From Dongibacter bovis (GTDB taxonomy: Bacteria > Bacillota > Negativicutes > Selenomonadales > Selenomonadaceae): DNA of 64,000 nucleotides. The stretch lies in NCBI GenBank assembly GCA_902763085.1, contig CACWQW010000022.1:1-64000 (forward strand). The letters are read 5' to 3'. Below are positions 3,865-15,392 of this stretch, piece after piece; within the stretch, counting starts at the first letter, position 1, and the number at the start of each line of letters is the position of its first letter. Made by a program: the position numbers and the translations under genes. Below the pieces are notes generated by a model. It was not told the origin of the DNA. It saw nothing but the letters and a program-made list of their open reading frames with translations, and made no database searches.

Positions 3865-4653
3865 ATGAGAATCATGTTCGTTGGCGACGTCGTTGGCCGT
3901 AACGGCCGGAAGGCGTTTCGCAAGTATACACCGGAGCTGCGCAAGGAGAAAGGCATCGATGTCGTCGTGGTCAACGGCGAGAACTCCGCAGCGGGCAAGG
4001 GCTTCACGCGGAAATCCCTCGATGAGCTCTATCAGGGAGGCGCGGATATCGTGACCTCTGGCAACCACGTCTGGGATAAGAAGGACGTGCTCGAATTCAT
4101 CGATCAGGAGCCGTTCCTCATCCGCCCGGCGAATTACCCCGGGGAGGCGCCGGGCAAGGGATGGTGCGTGTATCCGTTCAAGGCGAAGAACATCGGCGTC
4201 ATGAACCTATCGGGGCGCGCGTTCATGCCGCCGCTCGACGATCCGTTCCAGAAAGTCGAGGAACTCCTCAAGGAGATGCAGCAGGAATGCGATCTCCTCT
4301 TCCTTGATTTCCACGCGGAGACGACCTCGGAGAAAATCGCGATGGGGTGGTATCTCGACGGCCGCGTGAACGGTGTCGTCGGGACGCATACCCACGTGCA
4401 GACGGCGGATGCCTGCCTGCTTCCCCAGGGGACGGGCTATATCACGGACCTCGGCATGACAGGACCGCGCTGCTCGGTGCTCGGCGTGGAGACGGAGAAG
4501 ATCCTCTACCGTTTCCAGACCTGCCGCCCCGTCCGCTTCGAGGTCGCGGAGGGGCCTTCCGTCTACGCAGCCGTCATCATGACCATCGATGATGCTTCCA
4601 ATCGCACGGTTGACATCGAGCGCGTGCAGATCTTGGAAGATTGGCCGAATTGA
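3865..4653 (+). CDS. ymdB: YmdB-family metallophosphoesterase
   Basis: Calcineurin-like phosphoesterase of 262 residues, the family length. Family members hydrolyse 2',3'-cyclic nucleotides and affect RNase Y-dependent processes. Visible metal-site motifs in order are GDVVGRNG near the N-terminus, NGENSAAGKG, GNHVWDKK, DFHAETTSEK and GTHTHVQTAD. It follows the hypothetical gene by 15 bases and lies downstream of rny, the same order as in Bacillus. Cytoplasmic; no signal peptide. Confidence 0.93.
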   Translation: MRIMFVGDVVGRNGRKAFRKYTPELRKEKGIDVVVVNGENSAAGKGFTRKSLDELYQGGADIVTSGNHVWDKKDVLEFIDQEPFLIRPANYPGEAPGKGWCVYPFKAKNIGVMNLSGRAFMPPLDDPFQKVEELLKEMQQECDLLFLDFHAETTSEKIAMGWYLDGRVNGVVGTHTHVQTADACLLPQGTGYITDLGMTGPRCSVLGVETEKILYRFQTCRPVRFEVAEGPSVYAAVIMTIDDASNRTVDIERVQILEDWPN

Positions 4654-4662
4654 TGCCGCGCG

Positions 4663-4689
4663 GCAGGAGTTTCCTCTTTCGTGTAGAAA
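4663..4689 (+). repeat. Intergenic motif shared with 58098-58125
   Basis: The pattern GCAGGA, a T-rich TTTCC, CTTTCG and then AGAAA occurs here, ten bases after the ymdB stop, and again at 58098-58125 after sdaAA. Both copies lie in leaders upstream of small genes (spoVS, secreted protein). It may be a conserved cis element or RNA feature; function unknown. Confidence 0.4.
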
Positions 4690-4785
4690 CATGTAACAGA
4701 GAAAAATCTCGCGAAGACCGCTTCAGAGAGAGAAATGCCTTTTACAGGCAGACGATGCGCTTTGGAAAGAGAGGATGTGCCGCTC

Positions 4786-5046
4786 ATGGAGATTTTGAAG
4801 GTGTCAGCAAAATCCAACCCCAATTCCGTTGCCGGGGCCTTGGCTGGTGTGCTCAGGGAGTCCGGCAGCGCGGAAATGCAGGCTGTGGGGGCGGGCGCGC
4901 TCAATCAGGCGGTCAAGGCCATCGCGATTGCCCGCGGTTTTGTCGCACCGCATGGCATTGACCTCATCTGCATCCCGGCGTTCACCGATGTCGAGATCGA
5001 TGGCGTCCACCGCACGGCGATGAAGCTCATCGTCGAGCCGCGCTGA
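4786..5046 (+). CDS. spoVS: Stage V sporulation protein S
   Basis: An 86-residue protein, exactly the size of SpoVS, beginning MEILKVSAKSNPNSVAGAL and containing AEMQAVGAGALNQAVKAIAIARGF. SpoVS belongs to the Alba superfamily of small nucleic-acid-binding dimers; in Bacillus it is needed for coat and cortex formation and affects septation. ATG 4786 was chosen because it gives the family length; an upstream extension to 4735 adds unrelated residues. It is followed after 24 bases by the PHP phosphatase gene. SpoVS also occurs in non-sporulating lineages, so it does not prove sporulation. Confidence 0.93.
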   Translation: MEILKVSAKSNPNSVAGALAGVLRESGSAEMQAVGAGALNQAVKAIAIARGFVAPHGIDLICIPAFTDVEIDGVHRTAMKLIVEPR

Positions 5047-5070
5047 ATGGTGTGAGGAGGAGAAAACGGC

Positions 5071-5895
5071 ATGTCAAGCGATCTGCATACGCATACGACG
5101 TTCTCCGATGGGAAACTGACCCCGGAGGAACTCGTCTGTGCCGCTAAGAAAGCAGGACTGAAATACCTTGCCATCACGGATCACGATACCGTGGATGGCA
5201 TCGCCCATCTCTATGAGAACGGGTACTATCCGGCAAAGGGGATCCACATCATCCCCGGGATCGAGTTCTCCGCCCATCATCCGACGCAGGAGATCCACAT
5301 CCTCGGCTATCAGGTAGATATCTATAACAGCGAGCTCGCCGACCGCCTCAACGAGGTCACGGAGGCGCGCTGGACGCGGTTCACGGAGATGGTGGAGAAG
5401 CTGCAGAAGCTCGGCTATGATATCCGGGAGAAGGACGTGCTGACGGTCGCCGGCGCGAGCAAGTCCATCAGCCGCTCGCACATCGGACGCGTGCTCGTCA
5501 GCAAGGGGTATTTCAAGACCGTGCGCGACGCCTTCGCGGAGCTCTTGCAGAAGGGGCGCCCGGCGTATGTTCCGCATTACCGGCTCGAGGTCGAGGATAT
5601 CATCGGCCTCATCAAGCAGGCAGGCGGTCTCGCCGTCCTCGCGCATCCGAAACTCGTCTGGGATGACACCATCGTCGAGAGGATCTGCCAAAGCGGCATC
5701 GACGGTCTCGAGGTCTTCTATCCGCAGCACAATCCTGAGGACACGGCACATTACCTCGCCCTGGCGGAGAAATATCATCTGTTGCCCTCAGGCGGCTCTG
5801 ACTTTCACGGGTTCCCGACGCGCTATCCGACGGAACTCGGCGTCTTCACCATCGAGGACCGCTACGCAGAGCCGTTCGATCGGCCGGAGGAGTAA
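5071..5895 (+). CDS. PHP-domain phosphoesterase
   Basis: A 274-residue PHP-domain protein of the TrpH/YciV type, whose members hydrolyse 3',5'-nucleoside bisphosphates or act on RNA ends. The metal-site motifs are clear: DLHTHTTFSDG at residue 4, ITDHDTVDG near 36, GIEFSAHH near 68, LAHPKLVWDD near 190 and GSDFHG near 243. Good GAGGAG ribosome site upstream of ATG 5071. It lies between spoVS and the P-loop/Asp23 gene. A role in nucleotide or RNA salvage fits with the neighbouring RNase Y and YmdB genes but is inferred. Confidence 0.88.
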   Translation: MSSDLHTHTTFSDGKLTPEELVCAAKKAGLKYLAITDHDTVDGIAHLYENGYYPAKGIHIIPGIEFSAHHPTQEIHILGYQVDIYNSELADRLNEVTEARWTRFTEMVEKLQKLGYDIREKDVLTVAGASKSISRSHIGRVLVSKGYFKTVRDAFAELLQKGRPAYVPHYRLEVEDIIGLIKQAGGLAVLAHPKLVWDDTIVERICQSGIDGLEVFYPQHNPEDTAHYLALAEKYHLLPSGGSDFHGFPTRYPTELGVFTIEDRYAEPFDRPEE

Positions 5896-5964
5896 CGGGC
5901 AGGGCAGGCCCTATGGTGGGAGCCTGCCCTGCCGAGAGGCAGGAATAAGGAGAGAGGAATCCCT

Positions 5965-6798
5965 ATGGATGTCATCGCACTCGTCGGCCCGAGCGGCACA
6001 GGCAAGAGCCATCGCGCGCTGCTCGTCGCACATCAGCATCAGGCGGATGCCATCATCGACGACGGCATTCTCATCAAGGATGGGAAGATCATCGGCGGCC
6101 ACTCCGCCAAGAAGGAGAAGAGCCGCATCATGGCCGTGCGCCGCGCTATCTTCATCCTGCCTGGACATGCAGAGGAAGTGCGCGCGGCCATCGCTCAGGT
6201 CAAGCCGCATCGCATCCTCGTGCTCGGCACTTCGGAAAACATGGTGCATAAGATCACGAAGGCACTGCACCTGCCTGCCATCGCGCAGATCATCCACATC
6301 GAGGACATCGCGACGAAAGCGGAGATGGAGAAGGCGCGCTTCTATCGCCTCAAGCAGGGGAAACACATCATCCCCGTGCCGACCATTGAGCTCAAGCCGC
6401 ATTTTTCCGGCTATCTCGTCGATCCGCTGCAGACGTTCTTCAAGCGCTCGCGCACGCGGCGCCGCCGCCTCGGCGAGAAGTCTATCGTGCGTCCTGTCTT
6501 CAGCTATTACGGCAAGCTCAGCATTGACGATTCCGTCGTGGCGAACATCGTGCGCAACGTCGTCTCCCGCGAGGAATCGGTCAGCCGGGTCAGCCATATC
6601 CGCGTGCGCCATCGCTACGTCGATGATGAGGATCAGGGGCTCGACATCGTCTGTGAGATCACGCTTTCCTACGGCGGCCATATCCCGAGCCTCATCGAGG
6701 GGGCGCGGGAAAAGGCGAGGGAAGCGGTCGAATTCATGACGGGGATGGTCGTCCACGAGATCGATATCGTCGTCAAGGCACTCTATGTGAATGGATAA
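5965..6798 (+). CDS. P-loop protein with C-terminal Asp23/Gls24-like domain
   Basis: A 277-residue two-part protein. Residues 1-120 carry a Walker A motif (GPSGTGKS, 8-15) and resemble a nucleotide-binding domain. A basic linker follows (RSRTRRRRLG near 153). Residues about 170-277 resemble the Asp23/Gls24 (DUF322) fold seen in envelope-stress proteins of Firmicutes, with the typical GKLSIDDSVVANIV start and a conserved terminal beta strand. No membrane segment. Its stop overlaps the open frame of ftsH, so the two genes are probably co-expressed. An ATP-dependent role in membrane or envelope maintenance with FtsH is an inference. Confidence 0.75.
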   Translation: MDVIALVGPSGTGKSHRALLVAHQHQADAIIDDGILIKDGKIIGGHSAKKEKSRIMAVRRAIFILPGHAEEVRAAIAQVKPHRILVLGTSENMVHKITKALHLPAIAQIIHIEDIATKAEMEKARFYRLKQGKHIIPVPTIELKPHFSGYLVDPLQTFFKRSRTRRRRLGEKSIVRPVFSYYGKLSIDDSVVANIVRNVVSREESVSRVSHIRVRHRYVDDEDQGLDIVCEITLSYGGHIPSLIEGAREKAREAVEFMTGMVVHEIDIVVKALYVNG

Positions 6799-6814
6799 AA
6801 AAGAGGGAACCTCT

Positions 6815-8749
6815 ATGAAGGAAGTCAAAGAACCAAAGAAACCGCTGCTCTTCTTCTATGTCATGATGCTGTTCCTCGTGCTGCTCTTCAATGAGATGGC
6901 GCGTCCCTATCTCGAGCAGGCACAGTTCGAGAAGGTGGACTACAGCACGTTCATGGACATGATCGAGGAGAAGGACATCGGCCGCGTCGAGATCCAGGAG
7001 AACCAGATTCTCTTCACGGATGCGAATGATGCAAAAAAATACCGCACGGGCATCATGAACGATCCGACGCTCGCCGACCGCCTGCACGCCTCCGGCGCGA
7101 AGTTCACGCAGGACATCAAGGAGCAGACGTCGCCGCTCGTCGATTTCTTCATGACGTGGGTGTTGCCGATCCTCATCTTTTTCGCCATCGGGCAATATTT
7201 CAGCCGCAAGCTCATGGAGAAAGCGGGAGGCGGTGGCGGCTCTCTCATGTTCGGCATGGGCGGCAAGCAGGCGAAGATCTACGTGCCGTCCTCGGCAGGG
7301 ATCCACTTCAAGGACGTCGCTGGCGAGGATGAAGCAAAGGAGAACCTCTCAGAGATCGTCGACTACCTCCACAACCCGCAGAAGTATTCTGTCATCGGCG
7401 CGCAGATGCCGAAAGGCGTCCTGCTCGTCGGACCTCCGGGCACAGGCAAGACCATGCTCGCGAAAGCGGTGGCGGGCGAGGCGGACGTGCCGTTCTTCTC
7501 GATCGCCGGCTCGGAGTTCGTCGAGATGTTCGTCGGCATGGGCGCCTCCAAGGTGCGCGAGCTCTTCAAGCAGGCGAAGGAGAAGGCGCCCTGCATCGTC
7601 TTCATCGATGAGATCGATGCGATCGGGCAGAAGCGCAGCGGCAATGTCATGGGCAATGACGAGCGCGAGCAGACGCTCAACCAGCTGCTCACGGAGATGG
7701 ACGGGTTTGAGGGGAACAACGGCGTGATCATCCTCGCCGCGACGAACCGGCCGGAGTCACTCGATCCCGCCCTCCTGCGCCCCGGTCGTTTCGATCGCCG
7801 CGTGCCGGTCGAGCTGCCGGACCTCGCGGGACGCGAGGCCATTCTCAAAGTACACGCGCAGAAGATCCAGCTCGAAGAGGACGTCGATCTCCATACCATC
7901 GCCCGCATGGCGGCGGGAGCCTCGGGTGCAGAGCTCGCGAACATCGTCAACGAGGGCGCGCTGCGCGCCGTGCGCAACGGCAGGAATACGGTGCGCCAGT
8001 CCGATCTCGAGGAAAGCGTCGAAGTCGTCATCGCCGGCTATCAGAAGAAGAACGCGATCCTCTCCGACAAGGAGAAGCGCACGGTGGCCTATCATGAGAT
8101 CGGCCACGCGCTCGTTGCGGCCCTGCAGACGGACAGCGCGCCTGTGCAGAAGATCACGATCATCCCGCGCACGTCCGGCGCCCTCGGCTATACGATGCAG
8201 GTCGAACAGCAGGATAAGTACATCCTCACGAAAGAGGAGCTTGAGAACAAGATCGCGACGTTCACAGGCGGCCGTGCGGCAGAAGAGGTTAAGTTCGGCC
8301 AGGTCAGCACGGGCGCCGCGAACGATATCGAGCAGGCGACGAAGCTTGCGCGCGCGATGATCACGCGCTATGGTATGAGTGAGGAGTTTGACATGGTCGC
8401 GATGGAGACCGTCAACAACAAATACCTCGGCGGCGACACGAGCCTCACCTGCTCGGCAGCGACGCAGCAGCAGATCGACAAGCGCGTCGTCGAACTCGTG
8501 CGGCGTCAGCACGATGTCGCGAAAAAGCTCCTCGAGGAGCACATGGACAAGCTAGACGAGCTCGCAGGCTACCTCTACGAGAAGGAAACCATCACGGGGC
8601 AGGAGTTCATGGACATCCTGAAACGGGAAGAGAAGCCTGCCGACCTGCTTGCGGCAGGGGGCGGAGACGCTGACACTGCGCAGGTAGAAGCAGAGCTATC
8701 ACAGCGGGAGAATGTGACAAGCGATACAGGTTTGCCAAAAGAAAACTAA
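6815..8749 (+). CDS. ftsH: ATP-dependent zinc metalloprotease FtsH
   Basis: Membrane-anchored AAA+ protease that removes damaged membrane proteins and short-lived regulators. Two membrane helices flank an extracytoplasmic domain (about residues 10-130). Walker A GPPGTGKT is near 206, Walker [10 protein letters not shown] near 262, the second region of homology near 310, and the zinc site HEIGH near 426. ATG 6815 was chosen because AAGAGGGA (6801-6808) is well spaced; an upstream in-frame ATG at 6791 overlaps the previous gene and lacks a ribosome site. 644 residues, normal length. Followed by a strong terminator. Confidence 0.97.
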
Positions 8750-8763
8750 ACATTTGAGAGATG

Positions 8764-8801
8764 AAAAGCTCTTGCGGCTTGAATGCGGCAAGAGCTTTTT
8801 T
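8764..8801 (+). terminator. Terminator after ftsH
   Basis: A perfect 12-bp stem (8764-8775 with 8788-8799), 12-base loop and a run of T. It separates the housekeeping block from the accessory cluster. Confidence 0.88.
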
Positions 8802-8822
8802 AGTGGAAAATAAGAAAATGTC

Positions 8823-8852
8823 TTGCGGGGGGAGGGATAACTTTGCTATCAT
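8823..8852 (+). promoter_or_regulatory. Possible promoter of the glycolipid cluster
   Basis: TTGCGG and TATCAT are separated by 18 bases, with TGC before the -10 box (extended -10). It is the only candidate between the ftsH terminator and the UbiA-type gene. Confidence 0.4.
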
Positions 8853-8881
8853 AGAGGACAGCATGCAGCTGTCAGGGGAAA

Positions 8882-9781
8882 ATGCCTGTCAGTGTTCATA
8901 GGGAGATGAAAGCTACGACGATGATAGGAATTATCCTTCAGGAAATCCGCGTCAAGCAATATACGAAGAATGTGCTGGTGTACGCGGCACCGCTGTTCAG
9001 CGGCACCTTGCTCGTGCCAGATATGCTGAAGCGATCAACGTTGGCCTTTGTGTCGTTTTGCCTGGTGGCCAGTGCAGTTTATATCCTCAATGACATCCTG
9101 GATCGCGAAAAGGATCGCCAGCATCCGACCAAATGTCATCGGCCGATTGCCTCCGGCGAACTGTCTCTTGTCATGGCGATAGGGATTTTCTGCACGCTGC
9201 TGCTGGCGGCGGGGGTGCTTTCCTGGCTGGTTCGGCCTGGACTGACGGCGCTGCTCGCAGGCTATTTCCTGATGAATATCGCGTACTCGGTGCGGCTGAA
9301 ACATATTGTGCTTGTCGATGTCATGATCATAGCGGCAGGGTTTGTCATGCGCGCATTTGCCGGGACGCTCGCCGTTGGCGTTGGTGCCAGCAGCTGGTTC
9401 GTTGTCTGCGTATTCATGCTCTCGATGTTTCTGGCACTTGCCAAAAGGCGCTCGGAGCTGGTTTTGCTATCTGAGCATCCCGGCTGCCAGCGCCGCGTTC
9501 TGCAGGACTATTCGCTGGAACTAGTCAATCAGTTGCTCACCGTGGTCACCGCGGTTGCGGTGACAAGCTATTCACTGTTCGCAATCCAGGCTGACAATGT
9601 CGCCGAGCCGTTTATGCTGGGCACAGTACCTCTGGTAGTCTATGGCATCTTCCGCTATTTGTATTTGATCAATATCAAGGGATTGGGCGGCAAACCAGAG
9701 GAAATTCTGCTGAAAGACAAAGGAATCCTCTGCACTTGTTTGATGTTTTTTGTTTGCATTATGGTGATCAGGGATTTATAG
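8882..9781 (+). CDS. UbiA-family decaprenyl-phosphate phosphoribosyltransferase-like
   Basis: An integral membrane prenyltransferase of 299 residues. It has the UbiA Asp-rich motif as NDILDREKDRQHPTK near residue 69, followed by RPIASG, the signature shared with enzymes that add 5-phosphoribose from PRPP to polyprenyl phosphate (Rv3806c/DprA-like). About eight membrane helices follow, plus a cytosolic loop with LALAKRRSEL near 189. Family knowledge supports a polyprenyl-phosphate sugar, not quinone, product; the exact substrate is inferred. ATG 8882 has AGGGGAA upstream; ATG 8906 or 8921 could also serve. It opens the cluster of membrane glycolipid genes that runs to 13942. Confidence 0.85.
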   Translation: MPVSVHREMKATTMIGIILQEIRVKQYTKNVLVYAAPLFSGTLLVPDMLKRSTLAFVSFCLVASAVYILNDILDREKDRQHPTKCHRPIASGELSLVMAIGIFCTLLLAAGVLSWLVRPGLTALLAGYFLMNIAYSVRLKHIVLVDVMIIAAGFVMRAFAGTLAVGVGASSWFVVCVFMLSMFLALAKRRSELVLLSEHPGCQRRVLQDYSLELVNQLLTVVTAVAVTSYSLFAIQADNVAEPFMLGTVPLVVYGIFRYLYLINIKGLGGKPEEILLKDKGILCTCLMFFVCIMVIRDL

Positions 9782-9797
9782 ACTCTTTCAGAGAGGT

Positions 9798-10919
9798 ATG
9801 AATACTGGGGGGGAGAAAACAGGGATGAGGTCTGTCTTTCAAAATCAAAAGCTAGAGCGATGGATCGAGAAATTGATGCTCTTATTTCTTGTCATTACGA
9901 TTTCTGCTGCTTCGTTTGAGGGATTCTTCTCTAAATGGAGCTTTCGGGATGACGCGCATAGTTTTGGGATCGAACGTATGTTGGAGGGGACGGCGGATCG
10001 CCCTTATGTGTATCGTCGCCTTCTTCCAGAGGCAGCGAAGGCTATCGTTTCTTCCATGCCGACAGAGGCAAAGGACAAGCTGGAGAAAAAACTATCCACA
10101 CAACGACCGGCTGAAGACGTTTACGCGCGCTCGATCCCTCCTGCATCGTATCGGATTGAGTACTATTTATTGATGGCCTTTTGCTATCTCTTTCTAGTGG
10201 CAAGTGTCTATCTCTATCGTTCTATCTTTAGTGAAATTACGAAAGATTCAGTTGCTGGGACGCTCACAGCTTTTCTGTTTGCATTAATCTTTCCCTATTT
10301 GGAGGTGCTCGGCGGATATTATTACGATATTCCTGAAATCTTTTTCTTTGGATTGGCTGTTCGATGTGCGATGAATGGACGCATTGTTCCGTTTCTGTTT
10401 CTTTCCATTATTGCAACGTTGAATAAAGAAGCATTCTTTTTCTTTTTGCTTACGATGTTTCCATTTTTCCGGTTGCGCTACGGGACGAAGAAGGCGGCCT
10501 GCGTTGTTGCGGCATCGATTGTTCTTTCAGGGATTTTCTACGCAATGCTTTCGGGCATGTACGTTCAGAATCCGGGGGAGCGCGCGCAGTTTCATTTCAT
10601 TGATCACATCGTCGACTTCGTCCATTTGAATTCTTATCTCGTCACATCCACAACCTATGGGTTACCGCTAGCATCGGGCTTCTTTGTTACGCATGTTCTT
10701 TACGTGATCTGGATTGCATGGATGGGGTGGCAGTACCTCCCCGATGTCTGGAAGACACAGACGAAACTCGCGGCTCTTGTCAATGTGCCACTGTACTTGC
10801 TCTTCGCTAATCCGGGAGAGGTTCGCAACCTCAGCCTGCTCTATGTCTCCTTTTTTGTCATGTTAGCCTACTGGTTGCACCACTTACTGCGAACTGCGTA
10901 TGACGGCATGAAAAAATAG
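9798..10919 (+). CDS. Multi-pass membrane protein, possible GT-C-type glycosyltransferase
   Basis: A 373-residue protein with about nine hydrophobic segments and an N-terminal extracytoplasmic loop bearing FRDDAHSF near 52 and RPYVYRRLLP near 72, a pattern like GT-C enzymes that use polyprenyl-phosphate sugars. No close family is recognised. The gene is visibly more T-rich than the rest of the window, which suggests transfer. A G7 tract (9807-9813) lies between ATG 9798 and ATG 9825; the tract could itself act as the ribosome site for ATG 9825, so tract length could affect expression. It follows the UbiA-type gene by 16 bases, so it probably uses or modifies its lipid product. Confidence 0.65.
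   Translation: MNTGGEKTGMRSVFQNQKLERWIEKLMLLFLVITISAASFEGFFSKWSFRDDAHSFGIERMLEGTADRPYVYRRLLPEAAKAIVSSMPTEAKDKLEKKLSTQRPAEDVYARSIPPASYRIEYYLLMAFCYLFLVASVYLYRSIFSEITKDSVAGTLTAFLFALIFPYLEVLGGYYYDIPEIFFFGLAVRCAMNGRIVPFLFLSIIATLNKEAFFFFLLTMFPFFRLRYGTKKAACVVAASIVLSGIFYAMLSGMYVQNPGERAQFHFIDHIVDFVHLNSYLVTSTTYGLPLASGFFVTHVLYVIWIAWMGWQYLPDVWKTQTKLAALVNVPLYLLFANPGEVRNLSLLYVSFFVMLAYWLHHLLRTAYDGMKK
9807..9813 (+). repeat. G7 homopolymer tract near a start codon
   Basis: Seven consecutive G lie three codons into the T-rich membrane-protein gene and directly upstream of a second in-frame ATG (9825). It is one of three G7 tracts inside the 9.8-12.2 kb stretch. Confidence 0.9.
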
Positions 10920-10924
10920 TTCGA

Positions 10925-10950
10925 GCGGTATACCGCATCATATATGATGC
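10925..10950. repeat. Two overlapping perfect palindromes
   Basis: GCGGTATACCGC (10925-10936) and GCATCATATATGATGC (10935-10950) are both perfect palindromes and share two bases. They lie just after the GT-C-like gene, in a 135-base gap before the PAP2-like gene. They could be operators, or an RNA hairpin pair without a T-run. Confidence 0.7.
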
Positions 10951-11054
10951 ATAGGGAAAGAGGTTTTTGAAGGCGGGATGCTATTCAAGAAATTCTGAGG
11001 GAAAGAGATTTATTGGGCGGAAGCTCAGCCGAAGCCTGAGTCGTGAGGTGAGCC

Positions 11055-11471
11055 ATGATGATGTATATTCTACTGCCGTTTTTGTCCTGGGTGATTGCTG
11101 GTTGTTGCAAGTTTGCAGTGAACACGCTGCGCCATGGGCGTGCGGCAAAGAATCTCATCGGCTACGGAGGTTTTCCCAGTACGCATACGACGGTGCTTTC
11201 CTCTGTCGTTTTCTTTGCGGGTTTTCAACTCGGCTGGCAGTCACCTGTATTCACGCTTGGTCTGGGAGCTTTGGTCATACTGATCATCGACGCGCATGGC
11301 CTGCGGCGCAAGGTCGGCGAACAGGCGGCTGTATTGAATCGTCTGCAGCAGAAGGTGGATCCCGAGCACGCCATTTTGTTGCGCGAACGCATGGGACACA
11401 GTTGGATGGAGATCGGCGGCGGCCTGGCACTTGGAGCGTTTTTGGGGTGGCTGGCTGGTTTCTTTTGCTGA
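11055..11471 (+). CDS. Divergent PAP2-family (DUF212) membrane protein
   Basis: A 138-residue membrane protein of the divergent PAP2 family (YuiD-like). Key motifs are GGFPSTHT near residue 37 and MGHSWMEIGGG near 114, which match the histidine-containing phosphatase signatures. Family members are predicted lipid phosphatases. Placed two genes after a phosphoribosyl-polyprenyl-phosphate synthase-like gene, it would fit the 5'-phosphatase step of that pathway, as Rv3807c does in mycobacteria; this is an inference. GAGGTGAGCC is the ribosome site. A GTG further upstream in another frame is not coding. Confidence 0.82.
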   Translation: MMMYILLPFLSWVIAGCCKFAVNTLRHGRAAKNLIGYGGFPSTHTTVLSSVVFFAGFQLGWQSPVFTLGLGALVILIIDAHGLRRKVGEQAAVLNRLQQKVDPEHAILLRERMGHSWMEIGGGLALGAFLGWLAGFFC

Positions 11472-11574
11472 TGGGGCATGTACTTATTGCTGTGCATAGG
11501 ATTAAGCAGGGCGCAGGGCTTTGCATGTAACGAATCCGCGTGTCGTATCGTTCGACGTTGAGACATGGCCAGGC

Positions 11575-11581
11575 GGGGGGG
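11575..11581 (+). repeat. G7 homopolymer tract, intergenic
   Basis: Seven G in the 150-base gap between the PAP2-like and SMR genes, 40 bases before the SMR start. If a promoter or leader spans it, slippage could tune expression. No other signal is clear in this gap. Confidence 0.9.
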
Positions 11582-11621
11582 CTGCTGGACGTATGAAGTT
11601 TTGTAGGAAAGGATGGAATAG

Positions 11622-11984
11622 ATGAATCTCGTCATGATTATCAGCAGTGTTCTGCTCAATGCGATGGCGCAGCTGTTCCTGAAAAAAGGGATGATATCGA
11701 TTGGCGACATTGCCGTCAGTTTGGCGGGGGTTATCGGCATGATCCCCAAGGCGATCCTCAATCCGTTCATCTGGGGCGGCTTTGCCTGCTATGCCGTGAG
11801 TATTTTGCTCTGGCTGGTGGTATTGTCGAAGGTGGAAGTGAGCTACGCGTATCCGTTTTTGAGCATTGGGTATATTGTGGCTGCATTCGTTGGCTATTAT
11901 TTTCTAGGTGAGAGCATGAGTTTTTCCAAGGTTTGCGGCATTGCTGCAATTTGCTTGGGGATTATTTTGCTCTATCGGTCGTAG
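11622..11984 (+). CDS. SMR/EamA-type small membrane protein (flippase subunit-like)
   Basis: A 120-residue protein with four hydrophobic helices, beginning MNLVMIISSVLLNAMAQLFLKKG and containing YAYPFLSIGYIVAAF, typical of the small multidrug resistance fold. It most resembles the ArnE/ArnF-type subunits that flip aminoarabinose-phosphoundecaprenol. In this cluster it probably flips a polyprenyl-phosphate sugar; drug efflux is the alternative. GTAGGAAAGG precedes the ATG. Its stop is 13 bases from the next gene, so the two are co-transcribed. Confidence 0.8.
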   Translation: MNLVMIISSVLLNAMAQLFLKKGMISIGDIAVSLAGVIGMIPKAILNPFIWGGFACYAVSILLWLVVLSKVEVSYAYPFLSIGYIVAAFVGYYFLGESMSFSKVCGIAAICLGIILLYRS

Positions 11985-11997
11985 GAGGCGTGATTCT

Positions 11998-12977
11998 GTG
12001 AAATATTTCATCTTTGGTGGTAGCGGTTTTGTCGGACACGCTCTGACGAAAGCGCTCCTCGCCGAGGGAAAAGAAGTCTGTGTTTGTGATCTTGTACGCG
12101 ATAAAAGGATAAATGATGTCCGGGGGGGACATTTCTTTCCGTTGACATCACGGATCCTTCCGCCCTGCGGTCGGTGCCTCTGACATCAGGGGATGTGGTC
12201 ATTCATCTCGCCGCTCGGCAATATCATCTTTCTGTTCCACGGCAGCGCCGCAGGGAGTTCTTTTTTGATGTCAACTATCAGGGCACGGCGAATCTTCTTT
12301 CCGTCATGCAGGAGAAAGGATGTCGCCAGCTGATCTATTTCAGCACGGATATGACATATGGGAAGCCGGAGTTCTTGCCAGTAACGACGGATCATCCGCA
12401 GCGTCCCTTCGGCCCGTATGGAGCGAGCAAGAAGGCATCAGAAGATCTCTGCCGACGTTATCGTGCGCAGGGCATGTCCGTCACGATTTTTCGCCCGCGC
12501 ATGATTCTAGGGCCGGGACGTCTAGGCATCTTGAAAAAGTTGTTTCGGCTCATGGAATGGAATCTCCCTGTACCGATGATTGGTAGCGGAAGGAATTGCT
12601 ATCAAATGATCTCCGTATTTGATTGCGTTTCGGCCATCCAATGCTGTCTCAGGAAGGGAATCCCGAACCGTGAGTATGATCTCGGTTCGGAGAATCCACC
12701 AACTGTGCGTGAACTGCTTACTGGTACGATTCGCAAGGTCGGCTCACATTCAATCCTCTTGCCGACCAACGGAGGGCTGGTGAAAAGTTGTCTTGCGTTG
12801 CTCGGCAAGCTGGGGTTCGATATCATGTATCGTGAGCAGTATGAGATCGCGGATGAGAACTATATCGTCGACATCGCGGCGACGAAACAGGAGCTCGGCT
12901 GGACACCTCGTTATAACGATGAAGACATGCTCGCGCAGGCGTACGAATATTATGAGCAGGAAAAGGCCGCGCGATGA
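11998..12977 (+). pseudogene. NAD-dependent epimerase/dehydratase (extended SDR), frame broken at a G7 tract
   Basis: An extended short-chain dehydrogenase. The Rossmann start is KYFIFGGSGFVGHALTKAL just after GTG 11998 (AGGAGG upstream), and YGASKKASEDLCRRY gives the catalytic Tyr-Lys pair. The first frame stops at 12183; the rest is read in another frame from about 12129. One extra G in the G7 run 12122-12128 restores a continuous protein of 326 residues (joining VRGG to TFLSVDITDPSALRSVPL). The gene is therefore either phase-variable by slippage, freshly broken, or mis-sequenced. In the cluster it would modify a nucleotide- or lipid-linked sugar. Its stop overlaps the next ATG by four bases. 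Confidence 0.85.
12122..12128 (+). repeat. G7 homopolymer tract at a frameshift
   Basis: Seven G, inside the SDR gene at codon 42. Eight G would restore the frame. Candidate slipped-strand switch. Confidence 0.9.
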
Positions 12978-13942
12978 GGGGGATGATACACGACCTCTGG
13001 AAAAAGTTCCTCGGCGTCCTGGTGTTCGGCATTGTCGTTACGGTGGTCGTTTTGCTCATCGGCAATGTTTCTCAGATGGAAGTAGCCGTTGTGGCCGCTA
13101 ATGGAGGAGATCTCGCCTTGGCTGCGCTGTTCTCGCTTCTGATCTATAGCGGTCGGTTTCTCAAATGGCAGATATTCCTCCATGTATTGCACGTCGATGT
13201 TCCGCGTCCGATGAGCCTGCGCATTTTTCTCTGTGGCATCTCTATGGGCATCACGCCGGGGAAACTCGGCGAGGTATTGAAATCCTATTTGTTGAAGCTG
13301 GAAGCGGGTGTGGATTTTTCGCGTACGGCACCGACGGTGGTTGCGGAGCGATTGACAGGTGTGGTCGGGTGTTTCCTGCTCTGTTGCAGCGCGTTCGTGA
13401 TTTCTAAGGGGACGGCGTGGTATCAGGTGCTCGCGGCAGCGGCGGCAGTATCCTGCGTGCTGTCAGGGATCCTGCTGTTCCGCTCGTCGCTCTTTGCTGG
13501 CTGGTTCCGGAGAGGCGTCGCCTATCTGCCGTTTCTGAGGAGGAAGCAAGAGGCAATCGCCGAGATGTATGACAGTCTGGCGGAAATCCTTTCGCCGGGG
13601 GGATTCCTTCTCTGTGTCTTTATCAGCATTTGTTACTGGAGCATGGAATGCATGGTGTTCGTTTTCGTGCTGCGGGCGTTCTCTGTACAGTTGCCGTTGA
13701 CGGAGGCGGTGCTCTCTCTTACGGCACTTTCTCTCGGCAGCGGCATCACATTCCTGCCAGGAAGTATTGGAGCACTCGAGGGAGGAATGATTGGCTTCTT
13801 CGCGTATCAAGGGATTTCTGTGGCGACGGCGGGATGTATTGCGCTTTTGCACCGTTTTTTGCTATGTGGCTCTATGTTGGGATTGGCGCATTGCTGCTGC
13901 TTCGCTCTTATCGTCGGATTTTGTAAATCGCAGTGGTGTTGA
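12974..13942 (+). CDS. LPG-synthase-TM/UPF0104 family membrane protein (C-terminus probably frameshifted)
   Basis: A polytopic membrane protein of the lysylphosphatidylglycerol-synthase transmembrane family (PF03706), a group often found with polysaccharide and glycolipid genes. GITPGKLGEVLKSYLLK near residue 95 and LPGSIGALEGG near 260 are typical. The deduced last 30 residues are Cys-rich and atypical. One added T in the T6 run 13855-13860 gives a normal ending (RFFAMWLYVGIGALLLLR) with a stop at 13926 and 317 residues. So a one-base deletion or sequence error is likely. Probably acts in lipid-linked sugar transport or handling; this is inferred from family and context. Confidence 0.82.
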   Translation: MRGMIHDLWKKFLGVLVFGIVVTVVVLLIGNVSQMEVAVVAANGGDLALAALFSLLIYSGRFLKWQIFLHVLHVDVPRPMSLRIFLCGISMGITPGKLGEVLKSYLLKLEAGVDFSRTAPTVVAERLTGVVGCFLLCCSAFVISKGTAWYQVLAAAAAVSCVLSGILLFRSSLFAGWFRRGVAYLPFLRRKQEAIAEMYDSLAEILSPGGFLLCVFISICYWSMECMVFVFVLRAFSVQLPLTEAVLSLTALSLGSGITFLPGSIGALEGGMIGFFAYQGISVATAGCIALLHRFLLCGSMLGLAHCCCFALIVGFCKSQWC

Positions 13943-13954
13943 ATTTTTAGGGGA

Positions 13955-13983
13955 TTGACGCGGCAGAGTGTGTCTGTTATACT
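13955..13983 (+). promoter_or_regulatory. Promoter of the riboswitch-MFS transcript
   Basis: TTGACG and TATACT are separated by 17 bases, ending about 18 bases before the riboswitch. Confidence 0.85.
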
Positions 13984-14000
13984 GAAAGCGAATTGAATAG

Positions 14001-14080
14001 GCATCATAGGGCTGACGGAATCATGTGGAGACTACCACGTGCACTATGGTGTCAGGAACGGCCGACCGTCTGGGCAGAGA
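14001..14080 (+). promoter_or_regulatory. ZTP (pfl-type) riboswitch aptamer
   Basis: P1 pairs CATAG (14005-14009) with CTATG (14044-14048). Inside is a hairpin CATGTGG/CCACGTG. The loop stretch GACGG (14014-14018) pairs exactly with CCGTC (14066-14070) in the downstream conserved element CCGTCTGGGCA, as in the pfl-motif pseudoknot. ZTP riboswitches sense ZMP/ZTP, a sign of low 10-formyl-THF, and turn on purine and one-carbon genes. Assigned by eye from conserved bases; a covariance search would settle it. Confidence 0.7.
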
Positions 14081-14105
14081 GATTTTGCTCAGGCGGTTTT
14101 TGTTT
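14066..14105 (+). terminator. Riboswitch-controlled terminator
   Basis: CCGTCTGGGC (14066-14075) pairs over ten positions with GCTCAGGCGG (14087-14096), followed by TTTTTGTTT. The 5' arm is the same conserved segment that the riboswitch pseudoknot needs, so ligand binding should prevent termination and switch the transporter gene on. Confidence 0.8.
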
Positions 14106-14155
14106 GGGCGGAACCTCTCTTTCGTATGCTTTTTTCAGCAGAAAGGATGGTTTTC

Positions 14156-15370
14156 ATGCGGAATCGTTGGTGCATCGCCCTCGCGGCGGTCGGAATCCAT
14201 ATCTCCATCGGCAGCGTCTACGCCTGGAGCGTGCTCACACGGCCCATCATGGCGCAGCTCGGATTCTCTCTCTCCGAGACGACCTGGGCGTTCTCGCTCG
14301 CGATTCTCTTCCTCGGTTTTTCGGCGGGCTTCCTCGGCAAGTATGTCGAGAAATACGGCCCGAGGAGGAGCGGGCTCGTCTCCATGTGTTTTTTCGGGGC
14401 GGGGATGCTTGGCACGGCGCTTGCACTTTCCCTTGGCAGTCTGCCGCTGCTCTATCTTTTCTACGGCGTCATCGGTGGCATTGGACTTGGTGTCGGCTAC
14501 ATTACGCCGGTCTCGACGCTCGTCAAGTATTTCCCGAATCATCGCGGCTTCGCGACGGGGCTCGCCATCATGGGCTTCGGGTTTGCGGCGCTTATCGCGG
14601 GGCCGCTGATGCAGTATCTCACGGCACGGTTCGGTCTCGTGGAGAATTTCCTTATCCTCGGCGTCTGCTATATGGTGCTTATCGGCGCATCGGCGCTCTA
14701 TCTCAAGGCACCTGCCCAGCCAGGGGGTAAGGGCGCTGTGACGAAGCGCCTGCGTGGTGCGACGGCGGCTGAAGCGATGCGCACCTGGCAGTTCGGCGCG
14801 CTCTGGTGGGTGTTTTTCGTCAACATCACTTGCGGGATCGGTCTGCTCGCGGTCGCCTCGCCGATGGCACAGGAGGTCGTCGGCATGGATGCGGCGCAGG
14901 CAGCGTCTATGGTCGGCATCATCGGACTTTTGAACGGCGGCGGCAGGATCCTTTGGTCGACGCTTTCTGATTATCTCGGGCGCGGCTTTACCTACATGTT
15001 GTTTTTCGCGCTTGAGATCGGCGCGTTCGCGCTGCTTTCCGGCACGCATGACGCGCTGGTTTTCCAGCTGCTCGTCCTGCTCATCATCAGCTGCTACGGC
15101 GGCGGGTTCTCCTGCATGCCTGCGTATCTTTCTGATCTCTTCGGCACGCGTGAGCTCTCCGCAATCCACGGTCGTGTGCTCACGGCATGGGGCGTCGCTG
15201 GCGTCGTCGGCCCGACGCTCGTCTCTCTGCTGCGTGAGCGCACGCAGGGCTATACGACGATCCTGCTCTTTTTTGCTGGTCTTTTCATCGTGAACTTCGC
15301 GGTGGCGACGGTGCTGAAGCTCTATGGGAAACGACAGGCTGCAGCGGCTCTGCGGCAGGCATGTGTTTGA
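14156..15370 (+). CDS. MFS transporter, oxalate/formate antiporter family
   Basis: A 404-residue major facilitator with 12 hydrophobic segments. MRNRWCIALAAVGIHISIGS and VYAWSVLTRPI at the N-terminus are typical of the OxlT/OFA branch; GRILWSTLSDYLGRG appears in the second half. Substrate is probably a small carboxylate (formate, oxalate, lactate or similar). ATG 14156 was chosen because GAAAGGA (14141-14147) is well spaced; ATG 14147 overlaps that site. It is alone downstream of a ZTP-like riboswitch and terminator, which points to formate or one-carbon metabolism. Confidence 0.88.
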   Translation: MRNRWCIALAAVGIHISIGSVYAWSVLTRPIMAQLGFSLSETTWAFSLAILFLGFSAGFLGKYVEKYGPRRSGLVSMCFFGAGMLGTALALSLGSLPLLYLFYGVIGGIGLGVGYITPVSTLVKYFPNHRGFATGLAIMGFGFAALIAGPLMQYLTARFGLVENFLILGVCYMVLIGASALYLKAPAQPGGKGAVTKRLRGATAAEAMRTWQFGALWWVFFVNITCGIGLLAVASPMAQEVVGMDAAQAASMVGIIGLLNGGGRILWSTLSDYLGRGFTYMLFFALEIGAFALLSGTHDALVFQLLVLLIISCYGGGFSCMPAYLSDLFGTRELSAIHGRVLTAWGVAGVVGPTLVSLLRERTQGYTTILLFFAGLFIVNFAVATVLKLYGKRQAAAALRQACV

Positions 15371-15392
15371 AGATCCGCCAGGAAGATAGAAA

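Follow-up and report, generated by a model that had tools for sequence, protein, structure and literature searches.

A gene island in Dongibacter bovis that probably encodes an imported pathway for extracytoplasmic pentofuranosylation

The stretch of Dongibacter bovis DNA analyzed here (contig CACWQW010000022.1, positions 1 to 64,000; hereafter, the window) contains a group of same-strand genes at 8882-13942, bounded by ftsH (6791-8749) and a gene of the major facilitator superfamily (MFS, from 14039). These genes encode a UbiA-superfamily enzyme (P0001), an unclassified polytopic membrane protein (P0002), a DUF212 protein (P0003), a small multidrug resistance (SMR)-like protein (P0004), an extended short-chain dehydrogenase/reductase (SDR) and an LPG_synthase_TM family protein (LPG-TM, P0005); the coordinates are given in Table 1. 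The initial annotation described six genes in one direction between ftsH and a new promoter. The common strand and a promoter-like site are indeed present, and five of the genes are intact, but that of the extended SDR is split between two frames by a one-base change. The source genome (G000) is 88% complete, and open reading frames in unannotated comparison loci were called mechanically.

A search with P0001 against NCBIfam yields 272 bits for NF008977 (cut-off 234) and 239 bits for NF008978 (cut-off 207), whereas all models of quinone, haem and archaeal-lipid UbiA enzymes score below 50 bits. The best PDB match is 8j8j, a decaprenyl-phosphate phosphoribosyltransferase (DPPR synthase), with an E-value of 2.1e-43. 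The protein contains the sequence NDILDREKD at residue 70 (the NDxxDxxxD motif of loop II), KRRSE at residue 188 (the R/E pair of loop IV) and the RPIASG motif, so that both motifs noticed initially, NDxxDxxxD and RPIASG, are found. The NDxxDxxxD motif and the loop IV pair are conserved in, or needed for the activity of, polyprenyl-phosphate phosphoribosyltransferases (PPPR synthases; PMC11127046). By these sequence comparisons, P0001 is a polyprenyl-phosphate phosphoribosyltransferase at the family level, in line with the DPPR-type activity initially proposed. Given that the models score above their cut-offs, that 8j8j is matched and that the residues linked to activity are present, the prediction that P0001 makes polyprenyl-phospho-ribose-5-phosphate from phosphoribosyl pyrophosphate (PRPP) is well supported. 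No literature on a DPPR transferase in Selenomonas was found.

Table 1. Features of the island and its downstream border in the window
Feature	Coordinates	Strand	Evidence or remark
UbiA-superfamily polyprenyl-phosphate phosphoribosyltransferase (PPPR/DPPR synthase), P0001	8882..9781	+	NCBIfam NF008977, PDB 8j8j, motifs
Polytopic membrane protein P0002, unclassified, candidate GT-C pentosyltransferase	9798..10919	+	start perhaps ATG at 9825
DUF212 (divergent PAP2) protein P0003, candidate polyprenyl-P-ribose-5-phosphate phosphatase	11055..11471	+	PF02681, 89 bits
ArnE/ArnF-like SMR/EamA membrane protein P0004, candidate flippase subunit	11622..11984	+	EamA PF00892 above cut-off
Extended SDR, N-terminal part, GGSGFVG NAD-binding motif	11998..12183	+	GTG start at 11998; weak epimerase-family matches
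G7 tract, site of the SDR frame change	12122..12128	+	inside small hairpin 12115-12133
Extended SDR, C-terminal part (FSTD, YGASK catalytic motif)	12174..12977	+	PF01370, 94.6 bits; open from ~12120
LPG_synthase_TM/flippase-like membrane protein P0005, second candidate flippase or accessory protein	12974..13942	+	PF03706, 125 bits
Accessory island, interval between ftsH and the MFS gene	8668..13950	.	covers the final 82 bases of ftsH
Promoter-like site of the downstream MFS gene	13955..13983	+	just outside the island; shared with the empty site

Comparison with the closest relative, G049 (FtsH 96% identical), shows that these genes form an island. In a blastn search, positions 6724-8667 and 13951-15374 of the window align with G049 at 89%, and only 183 bp separate the two aligned flanks in G049. 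Given that the alignment breaks at 8667 and resumes at 13951 across this empty site, the island begins within the 3' end of ftsH and stops shortly before the MFS gene promoter. The GC content of the island genes is 46-55% (lowest in P0002), compared to 60% for the window. The other six genomes of the genus lack the UbiA gene, which occurs in 13 of the 189 genomes of the order, in three genera. The island was probably imported. The last FtsH codons (8667-8749) are unlike those of G049; because the junction lies inside the coding sequence, the C-terminal tail of FtsH has apparently been replaced by the insertion. Runs of at least seven G or C occur only three times in the 64-kb window (4.9 expected window-wide), all within the 5.3-kb island, namely at 9807-9813 (likely the P0002 ribosome site), at 11575-11581 (upstream of the SMR gene) and in the SDR gene.

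The P0003 protein matches PF02681 above the Pfam cut-off, as its initial description as a divergent PAP2 protein implied. The canonical PAP2 signature consists of K-x6-R, PSxH and R...H-x3-D/E. Seven UbiA-linked DUF212 proteins share the invariant PAP2-like set K-x6-R, PSTH, DAHxLR and GHxxxE and thus carry this signature, with an R-to-H spacing that in most of them is longer than the canonical one; in a more distant member (from locus L164, see below), Q replaces the first R. A DUF212 gene is present in 8 of the 13 UbiA-positive genomes of the order compared to 14 of the 176 UbiA-negative ones (Fisher p 8e-6, uncorrected for ancestry), and all eight DUF212 genes of the UbiA-positive genomes adjoin UbiA. 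In other genomes, the place of DUF212 is taken by a HAD or PHP phosphatase. The operon in L164 includes DprE1 and DprE2 as epimerase subunits as well as a candidate flippase, and DUF212 is its sole phosphatase candidate among the families searched. These observations make P0003 a candidate for the 5'-phosphatase. A PDB search started with DUF212 gives no meaningful match, and no relatives were found in viral contigs.

The P0002 protein has no Pfam or NCBIfam match, and a profile built from 29 relatives detects no PDB relative. It contains one N-terminal transmembrane segment (TM1) followed by an 84-residue loop and several further hydrophobic segments, an arrangement that agrees with the general layout described for glycosyltransferases of the GT-C type (PMC11127046). 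The invariant residues of the family include R73, E121, R141, D177, E180, N209-K210-E211, E341 and R343. The family adjoins UbiA or UbiA-DUF212 in relatives of the same taxonomic family, in Sphingomonadaceae (on plasmids) and in Burkholderia; in the order, it is represented in 11 of the 13 UbiA-positive genomes, in all 11 next to UbiA, compared to 19 of the 176 UbiA-negative ones. The initial label "GT-C-like" is accordingly compatible with the architecture, but no relationship to a known Pfam, NCBIfam or PDB family backs it, and P0002 is best described as a candidate GT-C transferase, a label that derives from architecture and gene order. No relatives of P0002 were found in viral contigs either.

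Two further membrane proteins are candidate flippases. P0004 and P0005 match EamA/SMR and LPG_synthase_TM, respectively, above the Pfam cut-offs, in agreement with the SMR subunit and the LPG-TM protein recognized at the outset. Among the NCBIfam models, P0004 is most similar to ArnF (60 bits, cut-off 99), followed by ArnE (38 bits, cut-off 92), so that by sequence it resembles ArnE/F but falls short of assignment to these families. An SMR gene adjoins UbiA in two other loci (L032 and L033). P0005 scores 92 bits against TIGR00374, and LPG-TM genes are found beside UbiA in many clostridia and also in haloarchaeal loci.

The extended SDR was correctly identified as such from its sequence but is not encoded in one open frame: the GxxGxxG and YxxxK motifs are both present, in two frames parted by the G7 tract. 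With one base added to this tract, the gene encodes a 326-amino-acid SDR that can be aligned with intact relatives across the repair; a -1 slip of the ribosome, or during transcription, at the G7 run would be equivalent to the added G. Beyond the frame change, the gene is intact, with GGSGFVG, FSTD and YGASK all present and no second lesion, so that any loss of the SDR is either recent or only apparent; the break may represent an assembly error, a switch or recent decay. The C-terminal part shares 60-66% identity with the uninterrupted SDR of L033, a neighbor of UbiA-SMR-DUF212. In the phylogenetic tree, the SDR of the window, that of L033 (beside UbiA), that of Neorhizobium (in a UbiA-DprE1-SMR-SDR locus) and that of Azospirillum form a clade with support of 98/94, and the sister group includes SDRs from other UbiA loci of the phylum, from haloarchaea and from strain NGR234. 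The UbiA gene of G176 (locus L066, 7582-8438) is likewise disrupted and consists of two pieces with stops; its DUF212 and P0002-family neighbors are intact.

The genes that accompany this UbiA family differ from locus to locus, but the logic of the pathway is retained. Relatives of genus g13 carry UbiA-(DUF212) with a gene of the P0002 family, and UbiA-DUF212 followed by the P0002 family is found in five loci (L034, L036, L061, L063 and L066). Genus g17 has UbiA-SMR-(SDR)-DUF212 (L032, L033) followed by a larger membrane protein without a Pfam family, a relative of which follows UbiA-HAD in metagenome-assembled genomes of Bacteroidales (L029, L030); PDB searches with the large membrane proteins of L032, L033 and L029 yield nothing meaningful. 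Other arrangements are UbiA-DprE1-DprE2-HAD in Flavobacteria, UbiA-HAD-GtrA on a Lactococcus plasmid, UbiA-GtrA-FAD oxidoreductase-SDR in Rhizobium, and UbiA-LPG_TM-SDR or UbiA-LPG_TM-PHP in several clostridia-like genomes of the phylum. A grouping confined to this one genome would have spoken against the initial proposal; in fact, partner genes occur with the same UbiA in many genomes, and their recurrence as neighbors shows that the grouping is not due to chance. In L164 (G452, 4420-10506), the genes GMC oxidoreductase-UbiA-DprE1-DprE2-LPG_TM-DUF212 form a tight run that may be a complete arabinose-lipid operon from outside Actinobacteria, supplemented by a GMC enzyme. On the plasmid pNGR234a of Sinorhizobium fredii (L161, 5845-12942), genes for an SMR transporter and a GMC oxidoreductase come after that of a related SDR, and UbiA lies at a distance of about 5 kb; this symbiotic plasmid may carry a variant of the pathway. 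Haloarchaeal plasmids (L124, L125, L126 and L127) carry UbiA-PHP-LPG_TM, with a DPPR-synthase-like UbiA and a PHP-domain protein, and an extended SDR and a dolichol-phosphate (DolP)-mannose mannosyltransferase nearby; this gene content suggests pentofuranose lipid chemistry in archaea.

The closest known system, compared here by its published description rather than by sequences, is the three-component polyprenyl-phosphate pentofuranose pathway of Citrobacter, which has been demonstrated experimentally (Kelly et al. 2024, PMC11127046). In Citrobacter youngae O1/O2, the parts are the PPPRS-PRP protein ORF15, the flippase ORF14, the SDR epimerase ORF13, which converts the ribo to the xylo form, and the GT136 enzyme ORF12; after the loss of orf13, O1 transfers polyprenyl-P-ribose (PMC11127046). 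Both systems combine in one accessory cluster a UbiA PPPR synthase, a 5'-phosphatase (a candidate in the present case), a small transporter of the ArnE/EmrE-like kind, an SDR that is not paired with DprE1 and a (here candidate) GT-C transferase. The differences are that the phosphatase candidate is DUF212 rather than HAD, that P0002 has no detectable family, that an LPG-TM protein is added, that the SDR has a frame change, and that the host, a diderm Firmicute in the words of the initial annotation, belongs to another phylum. The decaprenyl-phosphoryl-arabinose (DPA) pathway of mycobacteria (Rv3806c, Rv3807c, DprE1/DprE2, Rv3789 and Emb/Aft; for Rv3807c and Rv3789, see PMC11127046) shares the family of the first enzyme (8j8j) and the logic of phosphatase, epimerase, flippase and membrane transferase. 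It differs in its defining feature, DprE1, which the window cluster lacks, and in having a short DprE2 instead of an extended SDR, a canonical PAP2 protein instead of DUF212, and core genes instead of an accessory island. The haloarchaeal clusters (plasmids of Haloterrigena, Natronococcus and Halostagnicola), for which no functional study was found, resemble the island in the DPPR-synthase-like UbiA, LPG_TM and a homologous extended SDR (E ~1e-46) beside a GT-C gene, but have a PHP-domain protein instead of DUF212, a different GT-C family and no SMR protein.

Taken together, these observations make it likely that the island encodes an imported pathway for extracytoplasmic pentofuranosylation. 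P0001 would couple PRPP to polyprenyl phosphate to yield polyprenyl-phospho-ribose-5-phosphate, from which the DUF212 protein might strip the 5'-phosphate, a role shown or thought to be played by HAD, PAP2 or PHP phosphatases in sister systems. The extended GalE-like NAD-dependent SDR, the gene of which is broken in the assembly, could then turn ribofuranose into xylo- or arabinofuranose with no flavoenzyme as partner; the ArnE/F-like SMR protein, alone or together with LPG-TM, would present the lipid-linked sugar on the outer face, and P0002, to judge from gene order and architecture, might transfer it to an envelope glycan or protein. A lipid-linked pentose pathway was the central proposal of the initial annotation, and the placement of P0001 among DPPR synthases and the recurrence of the partner genes support it in part; the general idea is not new, having been established for Citrobacter (PMC11127046). 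Thus, the principle is already known from other bacteria, whereas phosphatases and putative transferases of the kinds present here have not yet been tied to such a pathway.

Among the alternatives, a UbiA enzyme acting as a quinone, haem or archaeal-lipid prenyltransferase, in a cluster unrelated to sugars, would be in keeping with the common superfamily and the Asp-rich motif. With the scores and the PDB match given above, this alternative is refuted at the family level and is extremely improbable; in particular, a quinone or haem prenyltransferase identity is ruled out. A different question is where the pathway ends. If the SDR is a pseudogene, polyprenyl-P-ribose itself would be transferred; the frame change, the relatives that carry UbiA-(DUF212)-P0002 and no SDR, and the precedent of Citrobacter O1/O2 speak for this outcome, but the otherwise intact SDR and the error-prone nature, for sequencing and assembly, of a G7 tract in a hairpin leave it somewhat unlikely. 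Conversely, a DprE1-type flavoenzyme encoded elsewhere could pair with the SDR to make arabinofuranose by the classical two-enzyme route. The Neorhizobium SDR, 48% identical to that of the window, is located with DprE1 and SMR beside UbiA, and GMC oxidoreductases are found near the related SDRs of Azospirillum and NGR234; given these neighbors, the SDRs of all three may be reductases of a pair, and in an 88% complete genome such a partner could be missed. However, no convincing DprE1 homolog is detectable in the source genome or in 12 UbiA-positive relatives: the best matches in the source genome are short, with 23-29% identity and E-values of 1e-6 at best, and G043, a 99% complete genome with an intact UbiA-SMR-SDR-DUF212 set, yields none. 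This result agrees with the initial statement that a recognizable DprE1-type flavoenzyme is lacking. GMC oxidoreductases are likewise missing from the five genomes searched, including the source genome and G043. The two-enzyme route is therefore quite unlikely, and because neither type of flavoenzyme was found here or in G043, a lone NAD epimerase similar to Citrobacter ORF13 would be the simpler reading of the SDR in both genomes.

Another alternative holds that DUF212 and P0002 are passengers, with DUF212 involved in the general turnover of lipid phosphates and some unrelated phosphatase of the cell removing the 5'-phosphate. The DUF212 genes in UbiA-negative genomes, the 5 of 12 related UbiA loci that lack DUF212, and the P0002 relatives that occur without UbiA are in accord with this possibility, which nevertheless appears unlikely considering that DUF212 occupies the position of the HAD/PHP phosphatases, is present in the DprE1/DprE2 operon of L164 and retains PAP2-like catalytic residues. 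A far-reaching version of the preferred pathway, in which one NAD-dependent extended SDR epimerizes polyprenyl-phosphoribose without a flavoenzyme, after the action of a new type of phosphatase (DUF212), a new GT-C family (P0002) carries out the transfer, and slippage on the G7 tract decides whether ribose or its epimer is displayed at the surface, is quite unlikely.

Several observations weigh against pentofuranosylation as the function of the island. The SDR is frameshifted in this assembly, and the full six-gene order is not seen in any other genome examined. No demonstrated phosphatase activity was found for DUF212, nor any functional work on the family in a literature search judged by titles and abstracts. 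Single-sequence structure models are too poor for testing the fold of either DUF212 or P0002 (mean predicted local distance difference test (pLDDT) scores of 61.1 and 45.8, respectively). The P0002 profile gives no signal with haloarchaeal Mannosyl_trans4, GT39 or the large membrane proteins (LPG_TM served as the control), and the only hint of a GT-C relationship is a weak match to PF15971 in 3 of the 29 relatives, with an E-value of 0.07 at best. Both Fisher tests, for the P0002 family and for DUF212, ignore shared ancestry. Finally, P0002 is closer to a second branch of its family (41-46% identity) than to the other branch (32-37%), and this second branch is mostly found beside dnaJ in genomes without a UbiA gene. 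Given this affinity and the lowest GC content in the cluster, P0002 may have joined the island separately, which weakens its link to pentose. The second branch is represented in genus g13 by loci L099-L116, where it is located beside dnaJ, often with a chromate transporter.

If the assignment of the island to extracytoplasmic pentofuranosylation is correct, it extends to another phylum a pathway that is experimentally founded but so far narrow, being known from Citrobacter, Pseudomonas and mycobacteria. DUF212, a widespread family for which no assigned function was found, would gain a specific candidate role, and the unclassified membrane protein family of P0002 is flagged as linked to PPPR synthase across phyla. 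More generally, phosphatase, epimerase and flippase modules are exchanged around one conserved enzyme.

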